DNA from: Anatilimnocola floriformis
Lineage (GTDB): Bacteria > Planctomycetota > Planctomycetia > Pirellulales > Pirellulaceae
Assembly: GCF_024256385.1 (NCBI RefSeq)
Contig: NZ_JAMLFW010000001.1
Span: forward strand, 2,790,001-2,854,000
Direction of reading: 5' to 3'
Length of the DNA stretch: 64,000 bases
The position numbers and the translations under genes were made by a program. Position 1 is the stretch's first letter. Every line of letters begins with the position of its first letter. Below, piece by piece: positions 41,528 through 61,342 of the stretch. The notes beneath the pieces are model-generated. The model had not been told where the DNA came from. It saw nothing but the letters and a program-made list of their open reading frames with translations, and did no database searches.

Positions 41528-42817
41528 ATGTTTCACTCGCGACTGCTCAGTTTCGTTTCGTTGGCAATCGTCATCGTCGGTTCGGCGGCAACGACTGCAC
41601 AAGATTTTGAGCAAGAACCGATCGCCTACAGCAAACGCCAGCCAGACAATCGCGTTTCACGTTTGATCGAACAGATCAAGCAGGGCAGGCAGAAGCTGAA
41701 CTACGACGAAAAGCAGGGCTATTTGCCGGCGCTGCTCGACGTCCTGAAGGTGCCGCGATCTTCACAAATGCTTGTCTTTTCGAAGACCAGTTTGCAACGG
41801 CAACGAATTGCGCCGCGAACTCCGCGCGCCATCTATTTCAGCGACGATGTTTACGTTGGCTATTGCCACGACGGCGATGTCCTGGAAATCTCCACGGCTG
41901 ACGATCAACTCGGCGCGGTGTTCTACACGTTGGCTCAAGACGATCAGCCGCCGCCGCGCTTCGTGCGGCAAACCGACAGCTGCCTGATTTGCCACGGCAT
42001 GTCGACCTCGTTGCGAGTCCCGAGTCATGTGGTTCGATCCGTCTACAGTGACCCGCAAGGTTTGCCCATTCTCGCATCGGGTTCCTATCGCACCGATCAC
42101 ACCAGCCCTTTCGAACAGCGCTGGGGCGGCTGGTACGTAACAGGAACGCACGGCGAACAGAAACACTTGGGCAATTTGATCGTTCGCGGTCGCGACCGGC
42201 CCGAAGCAGCCGATAACTCCGCTGGTCAAAATGTGACCGACCTGAGCAAATGGCTGGCAACCGAAAACTATCTCACGCCGCACAGCGACATCGTTGCGCT
42301 GATGGTGCTCGAGCATCAGGCTCTCGTTCACAACCAGCTCACGCACGCCCGCTTTGCTACCGAGCAGGCACTCTACTTCGATAAGGCCTTGAGCGAGCAA
42401 TTGAAAGAGAACTCAGCAGACTTGCGCGATAGTACGAAGAGTCGAATCAAAAGCGCCTGTGAACCACTCGTTGAATGTCTCCTCTTCAGTGAAGAGACGC
42501 CGCTAACAGAAAAAATCAGCGGCACGAGCGAGTTCGCCGCGGACTTCATCAAGGCCGGCCCGCGCGATGACCGAGGGCGGTCTTTGCGCGAGCTTGATCT
42601 CACACGGCGGATGTTCAAGTATCCATGCAGCTACCTCATTTACTCTTCGAGCTTTCTCACTCTGCCGCAGCCGGCAAAGGAATATGTCGTGAAGCGGATG
42701 AAGGAAGTCCTCACGATGGCAGCGCCCGGCAAAAAATTTCAGCACCTGTCGGAGTCTGATCGGGCCAATGTGCTGGCCATCTTGGAGGCGACCCATCCGG
42801 ACTTCAAACGGCAGTAG
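41528..42817 (+). CDS. Exported mono-haem c-type protein of unknown family
   Basis: 429 residues with a signal peptide (LLSFVSLAIVIVGSAATTAQ). A single haem c site CLICH lies near residue 156, with nearby HGMSTSLRVPSHV that may supply the distal Met or His. The rest is not a standard cytochrome fold: about 75 residues before the haem have DDVYVGYCHDGDVLEISTAD, and after it there is a long alpha-helical region rich in His and Glu (VALMVLEHQALVHNQLTHAR). This architecture is frequent in planctomycetes, but I know no assigned function. An exported electron carrier or haem sensor is likely. Confidence 0.8.
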   Translation: MFHSRLLSFVSLAIVIVGSAATTAQDFEQEPIAYSKRQPDNRVSRLIEQIKQGRQKLNYDEKQGYLPALLDVLKVPRSSQMLVFSKTSLQRQRIAPRTPRAIYFSDDVYVGYCHDGDVLEISTADDQLGAVFYTLAQDDQPPPRFVRQTDSCLICHGMSTSLRVPSHVVRSVYSDPQGLPILASGSYRTDHTSPFEQRWGGWYVTGTHGEQKHLGNLIVRGRDRPEAADNSAGQNVTDLSKWLATENYLTPHSDIVALMVLEHQALVHNQLTHARFATEQALYFDKALSEQLKENSADLRDSTKSRIKSACEPLVECLLFSEETPLTEKISGTSEFAADFIKAGPRDDRGRSLRELDLTRRMFKYPCSYLIYSSSFLTLPQPAKEYVVKRMKEVLTMAAPGKKFQHLSESDRANVLAILEATHPDFKRQ

Positions 42818-57075: not shown

Positions 57076-57759
57076 TCACAGTTGCTGCATTGATCTTAGT
57101 TTTGCGGCCAGTTCTCGCAGGTCTTCCTCATTGATATCGACAAAAGAGTCTATCGATCGAATCGCAGCCAGTACGCTGTCGTGCGTCTGGCCTGGGCTCG
57201 GGACTTCTGGTGGGATCGAGTGCCTGTTGAGGATCGAAGGATAACGCCGCCAGCGTAGCAGGTTGTTGATGATGATGGCCAACAGCACCATGATCAGCGC
57301 GTTAGCTAGGACTGGTTGACTTACAAAGCGGAATCCCATCTGACGAATCCCGCTGCCGCCGATGACCGCGGTCAGGGCAGTAGCGCCGCCGGGTGGATGA
57401 ATGCACTTCAACTGAATCATCGCAGCAATAGACAACCCTACTGCGATAGCCGCCGCGGCATTTTGATCGGGAATGTACTGCGCACAGGCGACGCCGATTG
57501 CTGCCGAAACGATGTGCCCTACCAACACAGGCCAGGGTTGAGAAAGTTGCCCATGCGGTACAGCGAACAGCAGGACGGCACTGGCTCCCATCGAAGCGAC
57601 GATCGCCATCGTTTCTTGCTGTGGCACAAAGTGTTGGGTGATGAATGCGAGCGCTAAGATGGAGAGCCCACCGCCGATGCAAGCCACAAGTGTCTCGACG
57701 CTACTGACCTCAATTAACTCAACTCCAACCAATCGGCGAACTACGTCCAGAATCATCAA
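57076..57759 (-). CDS. HPP-family integral membrane protein
   Basis: 227 residues. Five or so hydrophobic segments (LVACIGGGLSILALAFI, TMAIVASMGASAVLLFAVPHG, VLVGHIVSAAIGVACA, AAAIAVGLSIAAMIQL, ALIMVLLAIIINNLL) and the family signature CIHPPGGATALTAV. A cytoplasmic C-terminal tail of about 50 residues follows (RRYPSILNRHS...). HPP proteins in cyanobacteria and chloroplasts are reported to take part in nitrite transport. It is the last gene of the leftward operon, 68 bp after a haem protein gene. A nitrite role here is inferred from family plus context. Confidence 0.88.
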   Translation of the reverse strand: MMILDVVRRLVGVELIEVSSVETLVACIGGGLSILALAFITQHFVPQQETMAIVASMGASAVLLFAVPHGQLSQPWPVLVGHIVSAAIGVACAQYIPDQNAAAAIAVGLSIAAMIQLKCIHPPGGATALTAVIGGSGIRQMGFRFVSQPVLANALIMVLLAIIINNLLRWRRYPSILNRHSIPPEVPSPGQTHDSVLAAIRSIDSFVDINEEDLRELAAKLRSMQQL

Positions 57760-57827
57760 GTGCCCCTACGATCACGGTCTTCGATCAAAGCTTCAACTGC
57801 CATGAGCAACGCCAGTTCGGTTGCAGA

Positions 57828-58370
57828 TTACGGTTGGGATGATTTTTTGAGCGGAATGGTAATCGACAATCCTGCCTTGCGATCTTTGTTGCTAGTCCGG
57901 TTCGGCGCATGACATTTCAGGCAATCGGAAGTCAAAGTAACGAGGCCGACGTAGCGGAACACATCGGACTCGCTCTGGGCGAATTCTGCCTTCCCGGACG
58001 CTAGCGCTTTGGCGGCTTCCTTTTCAAAACTGCTGCTGGGACGGTTGTCGGCATTCATTGCATCCAAGTCGATGGATAACCATTTCAGTTTCACCTTCTG
58101 CCGATTTTCCAGCTCGCGAAATACCTTTTGCAGCGACACGGCGGGGATCGCTAAGCGTTCGTCCTCGCGGTAGTAGTCCGCATGCACAACGTGCAAAGTC
58201 GCGTGCAGCGCTTCGTGCAGAACCCGCGCTTGTTGTTTGGCTTCTGTTTCCGTTAATCGTTCTACAGCCGTTGCGGTTTGCTCTTCAGCAGGGAGGCGCT
58301 TCTGCGACCAACCGATTGCCAGTAGCAGTGCAACGATCAGGGGCGTGCAAATGAAGCGAACTAGTTTCAT
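57828..58370 (-). CDS. Exported c-haem protein of the DUF3365 (Tll0287-like) type, copy 2
   Basis: 180 residues. Signal/anchor (FICTPLIVALLLAIGWS) then a helical domain with YREDERLAIPAVSLQKVFRE and KLKWLSIDLDAMNADNRPS, and a haem c site DCLKCHA near the end. DUF3365 domains are PAS-like haem sensor modules. It is paralogous to the gene immediately upstream (same layout, about 37 bp apart). The ATG at 58370 was chosen because it starts the signal helix; the longer frame from 58628 overlaps the upstream gene. Confidence 0.82.
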   Translation of the reverse strand: MKLVRFICTPLIVALLLAIGWSQKRLPAEEQTATAVERLTETEAKQQARVLHEALHATLHVVHADYYREDERLAIPAVSLQKVFRELENRQKVKLKWLSIDLDAMNADNRPSSSFEKEAAKALASGKAEFAQSESDVFRYVGLVTLTSDCLKCHAPNRTSNKDRKAGLSITIPLKKSSQP

Positions 58371-58407
58371 GTTCAGCTCGGAATATTTTCGTGGATACGC
58401 GACGGCA

Positions 58408-58968
58408 TTACTCAGCAGCGACGGGCACGCCGATGACGAGCGCTGCAAAGCGCGGTGACTTCGGCGAATCTTTGAAAAAGCCGGTATGGCAGGCAACGCA
58501 ACCTTCGCCAAGAGGAATGGCTGCAGCCCGCCAGTAGTAGCCATCCCGCGTTTCTTCGACGGCCGTCTCTCCTGCGGAAATCTTGGTGGCAGCGTGTTTT
58601 TCGAAAGCTGACTTCGGCTCGTGACCAATACTCATCGCCTTGGTATTGACTGCGATCCAACGCGTCTTGAGCTTAGAGTCTCGTCCAACTTCGGCGAAGA
58701 CATCCTCCAGAGCGCGGGCGGGCACAATCGCTCGTTCGCCGTGAAAGTAGCGCTCATGCATCACATCGAGCGTAGCCGCATAGATCTGATGCATGAGCTT
58801 CGCGCGATCACGGGCGACGGCGACCGGTACCTGAGTGTGGCTATCGGATTGATCGCTTCGAGCGGGTGGTTCTTCCGAAAAACTGCGACTCTGCAAGACG
58901 CCGCAGGCTAGGCTCAAGGCGCCGGCAATCAATATCCCGGCAAATGCGAATCGGCAAACAGGATTCAA
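58408..58968 (-). CDS. Exported c-haem DUF3365-type lipoprotein, copy 1
   Basis: 186 residues if the TTG at 58968 is used. Reasons: AGGAATAG lies just upstream, and the start falls 4 bp after the stop of the preceding gene; an ATG at 59079 would overlap that gene by more than 100 bp and add an Arg-rich leader. The signal (FAFAGILIAGALSLACG) contains a lipobox LSLAC. The domain has MHERYFHGERAIVPARALEDVF, KLKTRWIAVNTKAMS and the haem site GCVACHTGFF. It is a tandem paralogue of copy 2, suggesting a two-haem sensing or electron-transfer unit. Confidence 0.8.
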   Translation of the reverse strand: MNPVCRFAFAGILIAGALSLACGVLQSRSFSEEPPARSDQSDSHTQVPVAVARDRAKLMHQIYAATLDVMHERYFHGERAIVPARALEDVFAEVGRDSKLKTRWIAVNTKAMSIGHEPKSAFEKHAATKISAGETAVEETRDGYYWRAAAIPLGEGCVACHTGFFKDSPKSPRFAALVIGVPVAAE

Positions 58969-58972
58969 GATT

Positions 58973-59758
58973 CTATTCCTTTCGGTTAATGACTGACGGC
59001 GTCTGTGCGAGCAGGCCAGCCGGACCAGTTGGATTGAGACTGCAGCGATACTCTTCAATCGCGTGGCCAAGTTGCGCAATCAAGGCCCCAAATAGTCCGC
59101 GATGCTCCAAGAGAAATATTTCGGCTTGCTGCAGTTCGTCGGGCGAAGGGTAATGTTCTGCAGAGAGCGGTAGGCGAATCGCCTTGAAAACTGCGAAGGG
59201 CGCTAACAGCAATTGCTGCAGGCCAGCCAGGCAACACTGGATCGCTTCGCTCTGCGGTGTCCAAGCCAGTTGATGCAGTCCCATGGTGCTTCGCGAACCG
59301 AGCCGATTGGGCTTGTTTGTTTCGACTCGATAGCGATTGAAGAGCGCGGCCGACAGACATTGCAGTTCGAAGGTCTCACAGCGCTCGTGCCCAGGGAGCA
59401 ACCACTCTCCGACACACTGGCCGTGTTTGTAAACCTCAGCGGCAACTTGCAGCGGGTCGACTTCGGCCACCGACTCGCGCGCTATCCAACCCGGCGGCGA
59501 AACTTCGATCCAGTAAGACATAGGCCGCTGCTCATGCCGCGAGTGTCGGCGCGTCCGCTCACCAGCCGTGTCCACGATGATGCGAAGTTTCGCGCCCACG
59601 ACAGCCACGCTGGTGTTGGCTTCACGGCAGGCTTGCTCCAGAGATTTGCCCGCGCAGAAATAATCAATCGAAAATTCTTCGAAGACTCTCATTGACTCGG
59701 GGTAATCGATCACCCAGTCAACTACGGAAGCAATGATGTCGACCTCGGGCAAGTGCAT
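58973..59758 (-). CDS. DUF542 (ScdA/RIC N-domain) protein with novel C-terminal domain
   Basis: 261 residues, cytoplasmic. The first 60 residues match the DUF542 domain of iron-sulfur-cluster repair proteins (VVDWVIDYPESMRVFEEFSIDYFCAGKSLEQACRE, with the invariant Cys in YFCAG). In ScdA/YtfE this domain precedes a di-iron hemerythrin-like domain; here that is missing and about 190 residues of another domain follow, rich in Gln and Leu (LAGLQQLLLAPFAVF, PDELQQAEIFLLEHRGLFGAL). ScdA-type proteins respond to nitric oxide. It is the first gene of the four-gene operon, and an 80-nt leader follows the putative promoter. Confidence 0.78.
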   Translation of the reverse strand: MHLPEVDIIASVVDWVIDYPESMRVFEEFSIDYFCAGKSLEQACREANTSVAVVGAKLRIIVDTAGERTRRHSRHEQRPMSYWIEVSPPGWIARESVAEVDPLQVAAEVYKHGQCVGEWLLPGHERCETFELQCLSAALFNRYRVETNKPNRLGSRSTMGLHQLAWTPQSEAIQCCLAGLQQLLLAPFAVFKAIRLPLSAEHYPSPDELQQAEIFLLEHRGLFGALIAQLGHAIEEYRCSLNPTGPAGLLAQTPSVINRKE

Positions 59759-59844
59759 GTGCGGCTCGCGCTGGAAAGTGCAGACCGATTGCTATCTCCG
59801 CTGACGAAGTCGCCTTGTTGAGAGGATAGGCCCTTACTGATGTT

Positions 59845-59875
59845 TGGACAATATATGTTTAAACGTCTATTGTCA
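59845..59875 (-). promoter_or_regulatory. Sigma70-like promoter overlapped by a 30-bp dyad
   Basis: On the minus strand TTGACA (59875-59870) is followed after 17 bp by TATTGT (59852-59847). The same stretch is an inverted repeat centred at GTTTAAAC (59856-59863), arms of 15 bp with 12 matches. The dyad covers both promoter elements, typical for a repressor-blocked promoter of the DUF542 operon, whose start is about 85 bp downstream. The remaining space to 59950 shows nothing else. Confidence 0.7.
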
Positions 59876-59950
59876 AGTGATTTGCTGTAACGTCGTTTGT
59901 GAGGTGGAATCGCTTCGGCATACCAGCAGCGATAGTCGCGACGAGATTGA

Positions 59951-61342
59951 CTAGGCGCGCATTTCCTTCAATTGCTTGGTTGCGATTCCAATCGGGCGGT
60001 CCAGCGGAATGCCGGCGCAGGTGAGTATGGTGGTGAGTAGGTCGCCCTGATTTCCGCGGGTGTCTGGCAGAAAGCGCCCCGTACGCAGGGAACCGCCGCC
60101 TTTGCCTGCGAGGATGAAGGGCAGGTTCTCGCGAGTGTGCTTGTTGCCATCCTCCAGGCCGGAGCCCCACATCAAGATGCAGTTGTCTAGCAGCGTCCCT
60201 TCGCCTTCGCGCAAACCGTGCATTTTCTTCACCATGTACGCGAACTGCTCGATATTGAAGGACGTGATCGCGGCTACTTTGCGGACCATCTCCGCTTCGT
60301 TGTTGTGGTGGGTTTGCGAGTGATGTTGGTTATTGAATCCGAGTTCGGGATAAGAAACGCCGTTCGGCGTCGAGCCGATGTAGGTAAACACACGAGTTGT
60401 GTCAGTCTGCAGCGCCAGCACGGCGAGGTCGCACATCACCTGCATGTACTCGCTGCGCTTGTCTCCCTCTGGAATCTTGATTTCGATGGGGGGCGAATCG
60501 GAATCGTTGCGCCGGCTGGAACGGACGCCCGCTTTCTCCAAGGCGGCATCTTTCTGGCGCGATTCGATGGCCGCAATCCGCCGTTCAACTGAGCGAACGC
60601 TGTCCAGGTATTCATCCAGTTTTTTCTGGTCGGTTGACGGCAAGGTGCGCCTGAGATCCCTCGCGCCTCCCAAGACCAAATCCAGCATGCGCTGATCAAG
60701 AGAACTCGTCCCTATTGGACTCTGTTGACTCGAGCCGCCGCCACTCGATTGTTCCTTCGTGCTGAACAACCGCTTGAGCACATTGCGCGGATTGATCTCG
60801 GCAGGAACAGGTTGCGTCGGCGATTTGAAACTGCAGTGCGAGTAATAGGCCTCGTTCAATCCTTCCTGGTTTTCCTTCCACGTCTGCGGCATCGTGGCGA
60901 GTTCCAGAGACGTCAACGTCGTGGACGCTCCCACGTAGTTCGCGGCAACTTGATCGGCAGAAATCGAGATGTCGATCTCATTTCGCCTGGCCGCGTTCGG
61001 CAGCGCCGCCGTCAGCCAGGTTGATAGTTCCAGGGCGTGAGGTGCACCGTTGAAAGGAGCAATCGGAACGCCTGAGATTCCCTTCATCAGGAGACATTGG
61101 TCGAGCACAGGCTGCAGCGACGTCAGCGCTGGTGGTGGCGATGACAGAAAACTCTCCGCATCGGCGGGCCAGAACTGATCCATGATGACGCCGTGAGGCA
61201 TGTACATGAATCCAAGTCGGACCGGTGGCTTGTGCGATTTACTGTCGCCTGATTCCGCTGCCATGGTCTCCAAGAGAGGCAGGGCCAAGGAGAGGCCCAT
61301 TCCTTGCAGACAGGCACGACGACTCAGAATGTTCTTAGTCAT
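59951..61342 (-). CDS. DUF1552 protein (planctomycete exported family)
   Basis: 463 residues. N-terminal Tat-like leader ([19 protein letters not shown]) then the DUF1552 body: [21 protein letters not shown], the family motif HHSQTHH (HxxTHH, from the HXXSHH pattern) near residue 350 and [21 protein letters not shown]. Function is unknown; genes of this type always pair with DUF1592 genes in planctomycetes, as here. It overlaps its partner by 8 bp. Confidence 0.93.

Follow-up and report, generated by a model that had tools for sequence, protein, structure and literature searches.

The heme-binding Cache family to which Tll0287 belongs (sCache_heme; DUF3365/Tll0287, PF11845; structure 5b82) was divided in a 2026 preprint into members fused to signaling domains, regarded as nitric oxide (NO) sensors, and stand-alone members, regarded as redox proteins, and the preprint reports that a HAMP-fused member binds NO tightly (PMC12889525). 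Two stand-alone members of this family, designated here T1 and T2, are encoded in tandem in a four-gene operon of Anatilimnocola floriformis (genome size, 8.9 Mb), within a 64,000-nucleotide stretch of contig NZ_JAMLFW010000001.1 that is called the window and to which all coordinates refer. The tandem is flanked by a gene for a DUF542 (ScdA_N) protein and a gene for a membrane protein of the HPP family. The NO context of DUF542 proteins derives from work on YtfE (PMC9052748) and RIC (PMC9268430), and the nitrite role of HPP is taken over from work on HPP proteins of plants and cyanobacteria (PMC4137279). No description of the T1-T2 pair or its regulon was found in a title-level survey of the open-licence literature, a scope outside which texts mentioning both NsrR and Planctomycetes fall. 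We consider that the operon is a planctomycete NO (nitrosative-stress) module, with T1 and T2 as exported NO-reactive heme proteins, at a probability of about 60%; a role in NO defense is probable because the T1/T2 core recurs in relatives and sometimes lies beside genes for detecting or destroying NO.

The four genes are on the minus strand in the order DUF542 protein, T1, T2, TM_HPP, and when the sequence was reread the successive gaps were 4, 37, and 68 bp, as given in a preliminary description of this DNA. The DUF542 protein (58973..59758; 261 amino acids) carries its ScdA_N domain at residues 11 to 58 (about 59585-59728). T1 (58408..58968, from a TTG start that we chose) and T2 (57828..58370) each have one CXXCH heme motif, CVACH in T1 (58486-58500) and CLKCH in T2 (57909-57923). 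The last gene (57076..57759) starts at TTG or at the ATG of the next codon and encodes a protein of 227 amino acids with the TM_HPP domain (PF04982, 173 bits).

T1 and T2 resemble the described stand-alone sCache_heme proteins in the CXXCH motif and in the stand-alone form. With PF11845, for which the curated cutoff is 24.1, T2 scored above that value (48.6 bits) and T1 slightly below it (22.9 bits). In a tree of 110 domains, whose bootstrap had not fully settled, the clade holding T1 had 21 rows and that holding T2 had 39, both lying within one group of 61 (support, 99/99). T1 and T2 are thus old paralogues, since they form separate clades inside one supported group; a recent duplication giving rise to the pair was considered and rejected on the same tree. 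An AlphaFold2 model of T1 built from 52 sequences (T1 and 51 relatives) had a predicted local distance difference test (pLDDT) score of 82, and when compared with the PDB its sole match under an E value of 0.001 was Tll0287 (5b82; 2.6e-4), so that T1 is modeled with the Tll0287/Cache fold. GSU0935 (3b42) was the third match and not significant. Sequence searches of the PDB with T2, with a T1/T2/T3 profile (T3 being a third sCache_heme clade), and with a protein of the comparison clade described below gave nothing significant, 5b82 appearing once at an E value of 0.97. Both proteins are probably exported, judging from their N-terminal sequences as read by eye.

T1 and T2 differ from the described stand-alone proteins in their frequent pairing, in their location, in some genomes, amid NO genes, and in their probable heme ligands. 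Neither domain of the window has a cysteine outside CXXCH, and the distal axial cysteine of the Cys/His redox type is therefore lacking. The same was true of 19 of 21 T1, 33 of 40 T2, and all 14 T3 domains, where the T2 class comprises the 39 rows of its clade and one basal row, one T1 domain has no CXXCH, and two short T1 pieces of one locus (L146) were treated separately. One additional histidine is invariant (60/60 aligned T1/T2 domains and 52/52 T1 sequences of a second set). With the numbering of the Tll0287 ligand residues as a guide, the position of the distal cysteine may correspond to an aromatic residue of T1/T2, an uncertain assignment that comes from a single hhalign alignment with a gap beside the position.

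The pairing of the two heme genes is conserved. A profile scan of genome contigs for T1, in which the best 80 of 89 loci were taken and two peptide patterns were used, left 67 nonduplicate named loci after 13 copies of loci already used had been dropped; these are loci rather than genomes, since some genomes contribute two and a few are near-copies, and all tallies of neighbors are limited to the fetched flanks of contigs that are often short. The named relatives of T1 are mostly from Planctomycetota. T1 is immediately followed by T2 in 24 of the 67 loci, with the order T1 then T2 in all 24 pairs. A gene of the Rrf2 family lies directly upstream in 30 loci, and 14 have both the pair and the direct upstream Rrf2 gene. 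Among 147 genomes, the tandem was present in three (G077, G370, and G009) and in the source genome. The linkage of the two heme genes is thus conserved; of the four-gene co-occurrence that the preliminary description proposed as a check, the T1-T2 and DUF542 links recur, and the exact order DUF542-T1-T2-HPP was not found in the loci of relatives, although no search aimed at all four genes together was made. The operon of the window is a variant of this recurrent core, with two additional genes and without the operator found in relatives. A further family, designated c5 (proteins of ∼430 amino acids that have a single CXXCH and match no Pfam family), adjoins T1 or T2 in many relatives and occurs within the flanks of 15 of the 67 loci; the window has a member on the plus strand (41528-42817), about 14 kb from the operon.

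At least one of the genes for qNOR, Hmp, RIC, and Hcp was detected in the flanks of 12 of the 67 named loci (qNOR in 7, with that of L313 a fragment; Hmp in 5; RIC in 2; Hcp in 2), and NrfA was looked for in the same flanks and not found. qNOR was called from PF22085 and COX1 for examples and from similarity for the others, and NrfA from PF02335. The Hmp of L282 scored above the cutoff of the family model for NO-inducible flavohemoprotein, the RIC of L264 above that of FeS_repair_RIC, and the Hcp of L145 above that for hydroxylamine reductase. Relatives besides these 67 loci have further arrangements: T1-Rrf2 facing Hcp in a locus of the same genus (L145), RIC-T1-qNOR (L146), NrfA-NrfH-T2-RIC (L109), c5-T2-NsrR-like facing a short DUF542 gene (L188), and Hmp at most 2.7 kb from T2 (L126, L132, and L134). 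In a sister species of the same genus (G001; L165 and L166), T3 is directly upstream of qNOR twice. An Rrf2-family gene lies within 1 kb of 8/40 T2, 5/21 T1, and 5/14 T3 genes. Two loci (L282 and L291) have NO gene islands of ∼12 kb with c5, Hmp, Rrf2-T1-T2, NrfD-type genes, one NapA-like gene, and another gene of the Rrf2 family; the island of L282 also includes qNOR and that of L291 includes HPP. The nitrosative-stress part of the function put forward in the preliminary description is supported by the presence of Rrf2/NsrR-like, qNOR, RIC, Hcp, Hmp, and NrfA genes in some genomes and by the conserved T1-T2 linkage; the part that concerns HPP is weak.

The Rrf2 genes of relatives are associated with a palindrome, AATTCTACAC-N6-GTGTAGAATT, that was derived from 29 regions upstream of Rrf2 genes. 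A scan of 2.6 Mb gave 64 sites and the reversed sequence gave none; the 64, among which sites of training loci and of loci that overlap are also counted, divide into 12 in L001-L107, 19 in L108-L248, and 33 in L249 and up. Of the 29 training loci, 27 hold a site anywhere and 23 within the stretch used for training. Because the loci were chosen for holding T1/T2, DUF542, qNOR, or Rrf2, the distance from site to gene, rather than the presence of a site, is the evidence. Outside the training set (L108-L248), the palindrome was found at most 500 bp upstream of 10/23 Rrf2, 5/20 T1, 1/39 T2, 2/11 qNOR, and 1/1 Hcp genes, and upstream of 1/29 RIC or short DUF542 genes (a RIC gene). Full-length Hmp genes of L126, L134, L177, and L239 likewise have the palindrome upstream; three of these genes are above the cutoff for NO-inducible flavohemoprotein (L239 being without a given result). 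The palindrome was upstream of none of the 13 genes of the comparison clade.

This arrangement is like that of NsrR regulons, in that Rrf2-family genes of the relatives adjoin hcp, ric, hmp, or qNOR. The protein tested from the NsrR-like group scored best with NsrR among the specific models, at 101 bits, under the cutoff of 182. However, the Rrf2 proteins paired with T1 have a different cysteine pattern, as read by eye, and the operon of the window has no regulator gene. The palindrome of the T1-paired Rrf2 genes presumably also differs from the NsrR consensus.

Several observations weigh against an NO-related function. None of the five NO genes was present in the fetched flanks of 55 of the 67 named T1 loci. 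The absence of a cysteine beyond CXXCH also holds for 13 of 13 comparison-clade domains and 17 of 22 kinase-type domains, and because it is so common elsewhere in the family it is weak evidence and not a mark of T1/T2. The palindrome was upstream of none of 11 NsrR-like and none of 14 T3 genes in L108-L248, and only 2 of the 38 named T1 loci not used for training hold it, which ties it to a local Rrf2 gene. The window itself lacks the palindrome (best score, -1.7 in the window and -12.0 upstream of the operon), and no Rrf2 gene is in the operon, the NsrR consensus itself not having been scanned in the window. The one Rrf2 protein of the source genome with the two-cysteine pattern (L212) is encoded far from the operon, with no palindrome or recognized NO gene in the surrounding 9 kb; two others (L210 and L235) are without the two-cysteine stretch, and a fourth match was weak. 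A search of the source genome for qNOR and Hcp, which did not extend to Hmp, Nir, Nap, or Nrf, gave neither, a PF04405 search gave no second DUF542 copy, and T3 was not found there. Evidence inside the source genome is thin; function is inferred from relatives, because the source genome is without qNOR or Hcp and the window without the operator of the relatives.

Nor is the comparison clade a neutral control. It consists of 13 stand-alone Tll0287 loci among L214-L228, out of 20 that were fetched (2 were T3, and 5 were missed by the profile). None of the NO neighbors first sought was present in any of the 13 within flanks of about 4 kb. However, a gene for a single-domain globin adjoins in 11 of the 13, and all 10 that were tested belong to PF00042. 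The globin pairing may bear on gas chemistry in the heme-Cache family.

In the main alternative, T1 and T2 would serve as small redox carriers, for electron transfer or redox sensing, in an anaerobic or microaerobic respiratory chain, with the NO genes co-located through a shared use at low oxygen. The scarcity of NO genes at most T1 loci fits such a role, as do the NapA-like and NrfD genes near the tandems of L281, L282, and L291. The invariant second histidine could close the heme in a bis-His form. The one studied stand-alone member is redox-like and binds NO weakly, as does its Cys-to-Ala form (PMC12889525). However, neither T1 nor T2 of the window has the cysteine ligand of that member, which is missing in much of the family as well, and the coupling to Rrf2/NsrR-like, RIC, Hcp, and Hmp genes, together with an operator shared with Hmp, points more specifically to NO than to low oxygen. 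It seems rather unlikely that T1 and T2 are redox carriers of this kind.

The DUF542 protein is related to RIC/YtfE/ScdA through its ScdA_N domain, which scored above the PF04405 cutoff (34.3 bits; cutoff, 32.5) and retains one of the two cysteines. In the alignment, the window protein has DYFCAG in place of DxCCGG and thus does not have the CC pair of RIC, whose motif is given as DfCCgG (PMC9268430). It also differs in that no hemerythrin domain was found and in its orphan C-terminal part. Residues 76 to 261 had no hemerythrin or other Pfam match and no PHROG match, hhalign gave a probability of 0.05% against six RIC domains, and the protein scored 25.9 bits with the FeS_repair_RIC model TIGR03652 (cutoff, 204.7). 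A hemerythrin-like C-terminal domain, suggested by eye from an H-x3-E near the end, was rejected when Pfam, PHROGs, and hhalign gave nothing. Codon usage of the C-terminal part is coding-like (0.157 bits per codon in frame; the five other frames gave -0.06 to -0.29). When 372 genomes from the phylum, including that of the source, were compared, residues 76 to 261 had one match besides their own at an E value of ≤0.001 (5e-4 over 72 residues, 28% identity) and nine weaker matches up to 0.05; exact peptide patterns of the protein retrieved no relatives from genome contigs or viral contigs. By these comparisons, the C-terminal ∼180 residues are an orphan extension. A single-sequence AlphaFold2 model of the protein had a pLDDT of 37 and is not used here as evidence.

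The preliminary description had the DUF542 domain fused to another domain in place of hemerythrin, which is probably not so. The best match of the ScdA_N domain was an 81-residue frame (48% identity), the domain has, in common with short ScdA_N-only proteins, a gap of one residue and only one cysteine, and the C-terminal part is an orphan. Proteins of 65 to 76 residues consisting of ScdA_N only are encoded close to NsrR-like genes in L188, L191, and L186, and a short, hemerythrin-free DUF542 type seems to be part of NO gene sets. PF04405 had 64 matches in 50 of 147 genomes, the source genome included. Of the 27 genomes holding both a DUF542 and a T1/T2 gene, 8 (the source genome and 7 others) have the two at most 2 kb apart, compared with 0.068 pairs within 5 kb expected by chance under the assumption of a uniform 7.2-Mb genome; in one of the seven (G388) the DUF542 frame is interrupted by a stop.

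The HPP protein is linked to T1/T2 only thinly in the genomes compared. It is like the HPP nitrite transporters (AtNITR2;1 and cyanobacterial relatives) in sharing the TM_HPP domain; the likeness is at the family level only, and the window protein has a C-terminal tail of ∼50 residues. Only 2 of the 146 other genomes (G077 and G026) encode clear relatives (E value under 1e-50), beside T1/T2 in neither, and four further genomes had weak matches. The identified neighbors of HPP in G077 are unrelated. In G026, the contig that carries HPP also has Nap-like, qNOR, and RIC genes; three in-frame stops interrupt the match there (L176:1338-1799, plus strand), and the gene may be broken or badly assembled. 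In L291, TM_HPP lies about 3.1 kb from the Rrf2-T1-T2 set; c5 and Hmp share the strand of TM_HPP, and Rrf2-T1-T2 is on the opposite strand. That the four genes are adjacent by chance in one lineage, with T1-T2 the sole functional unit and DUF542 and HPP passengers, would agree with the full set not having been found elsewhere, the rarity of HPP, and the orphan C-terminal part of the DUF542 protein, but it is improbable in light of the seven other genomes with DUF542 near T1/T2, of L291, where TM_HPP has T1-T2, c5, and Hmp close by, and of the contig of G026.

Upstream of the operon, a 28-bp inverted repeat, GACAATA-N14-TATTGTC (59847..59874, assigned to neither strand; 12 of 14 positions paired), is a candidate operator. 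Such pairing was reached by 1 of 2,000 dinucleotide shuffles of the 202-bp upstream region, for a width picked after the repeat had been seen. It overlaps a promoter-like TTGACA-17-TATTGT on the minus strand (59848..59876), a match to consensus of which the upstream region has 2 where 1.5 are expected; the end at 59875 given for the locus in the preliminary description includes both elements. The possibility that this promoter is a copy of the operator of the relatives was rejected from the score upstream of the operon. The repeat is the sole exact copy in the genome, with no other at fewer than 2 mismatches, and further copies were rejected after a backward control gave 9 matches compared with 5. 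The downstream neighbor of the operon is a DUF899 gene on the opposite strand, and the gene upstream is an open reading frame on the minus strand (59951-61342).

In the NO module that we favor, the core would be the tandem of exported, mono-heme c-type Cache proteins T1 and T2, with heme presumably ligated at CXXCH. The two would most likely act jointly outside the cytoplasmic membrane, binding or buffering NO or exchanging electrons with it, much as cytochrome c' does. The DUF542 protein, in the cytoplasm, could handle the thiol or iron side of NO stress, HPP could carry nitrite across the membrane, and the operon would be expected to respond to NO in A. floriformis.

A broader proposal, which we put forward tentatively and do not regard as the likelier outcome, is that T1-T2 pairs are a class of stand-alone, exported, NO-binding proteins under an Rrf2 NO sensor whose operator also governs Hmp, qNOR, and Hcp, an extramembrane system that recurs in Planctomycetota and from which the operon of A. 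floriformis would have lost the operator and gained a DUF542 fusion and a nitrite transporter. Because T1-T2 pairs are stand-alone yet in some genomes belong to NO gene sets, they test the division of the family into NO sensors and redox proteins directly. An Rrf2 regulator with a defined operator before flavohemoglobin genes, together with c5 as a third heme-motif family, could define an NO response of the phylum.

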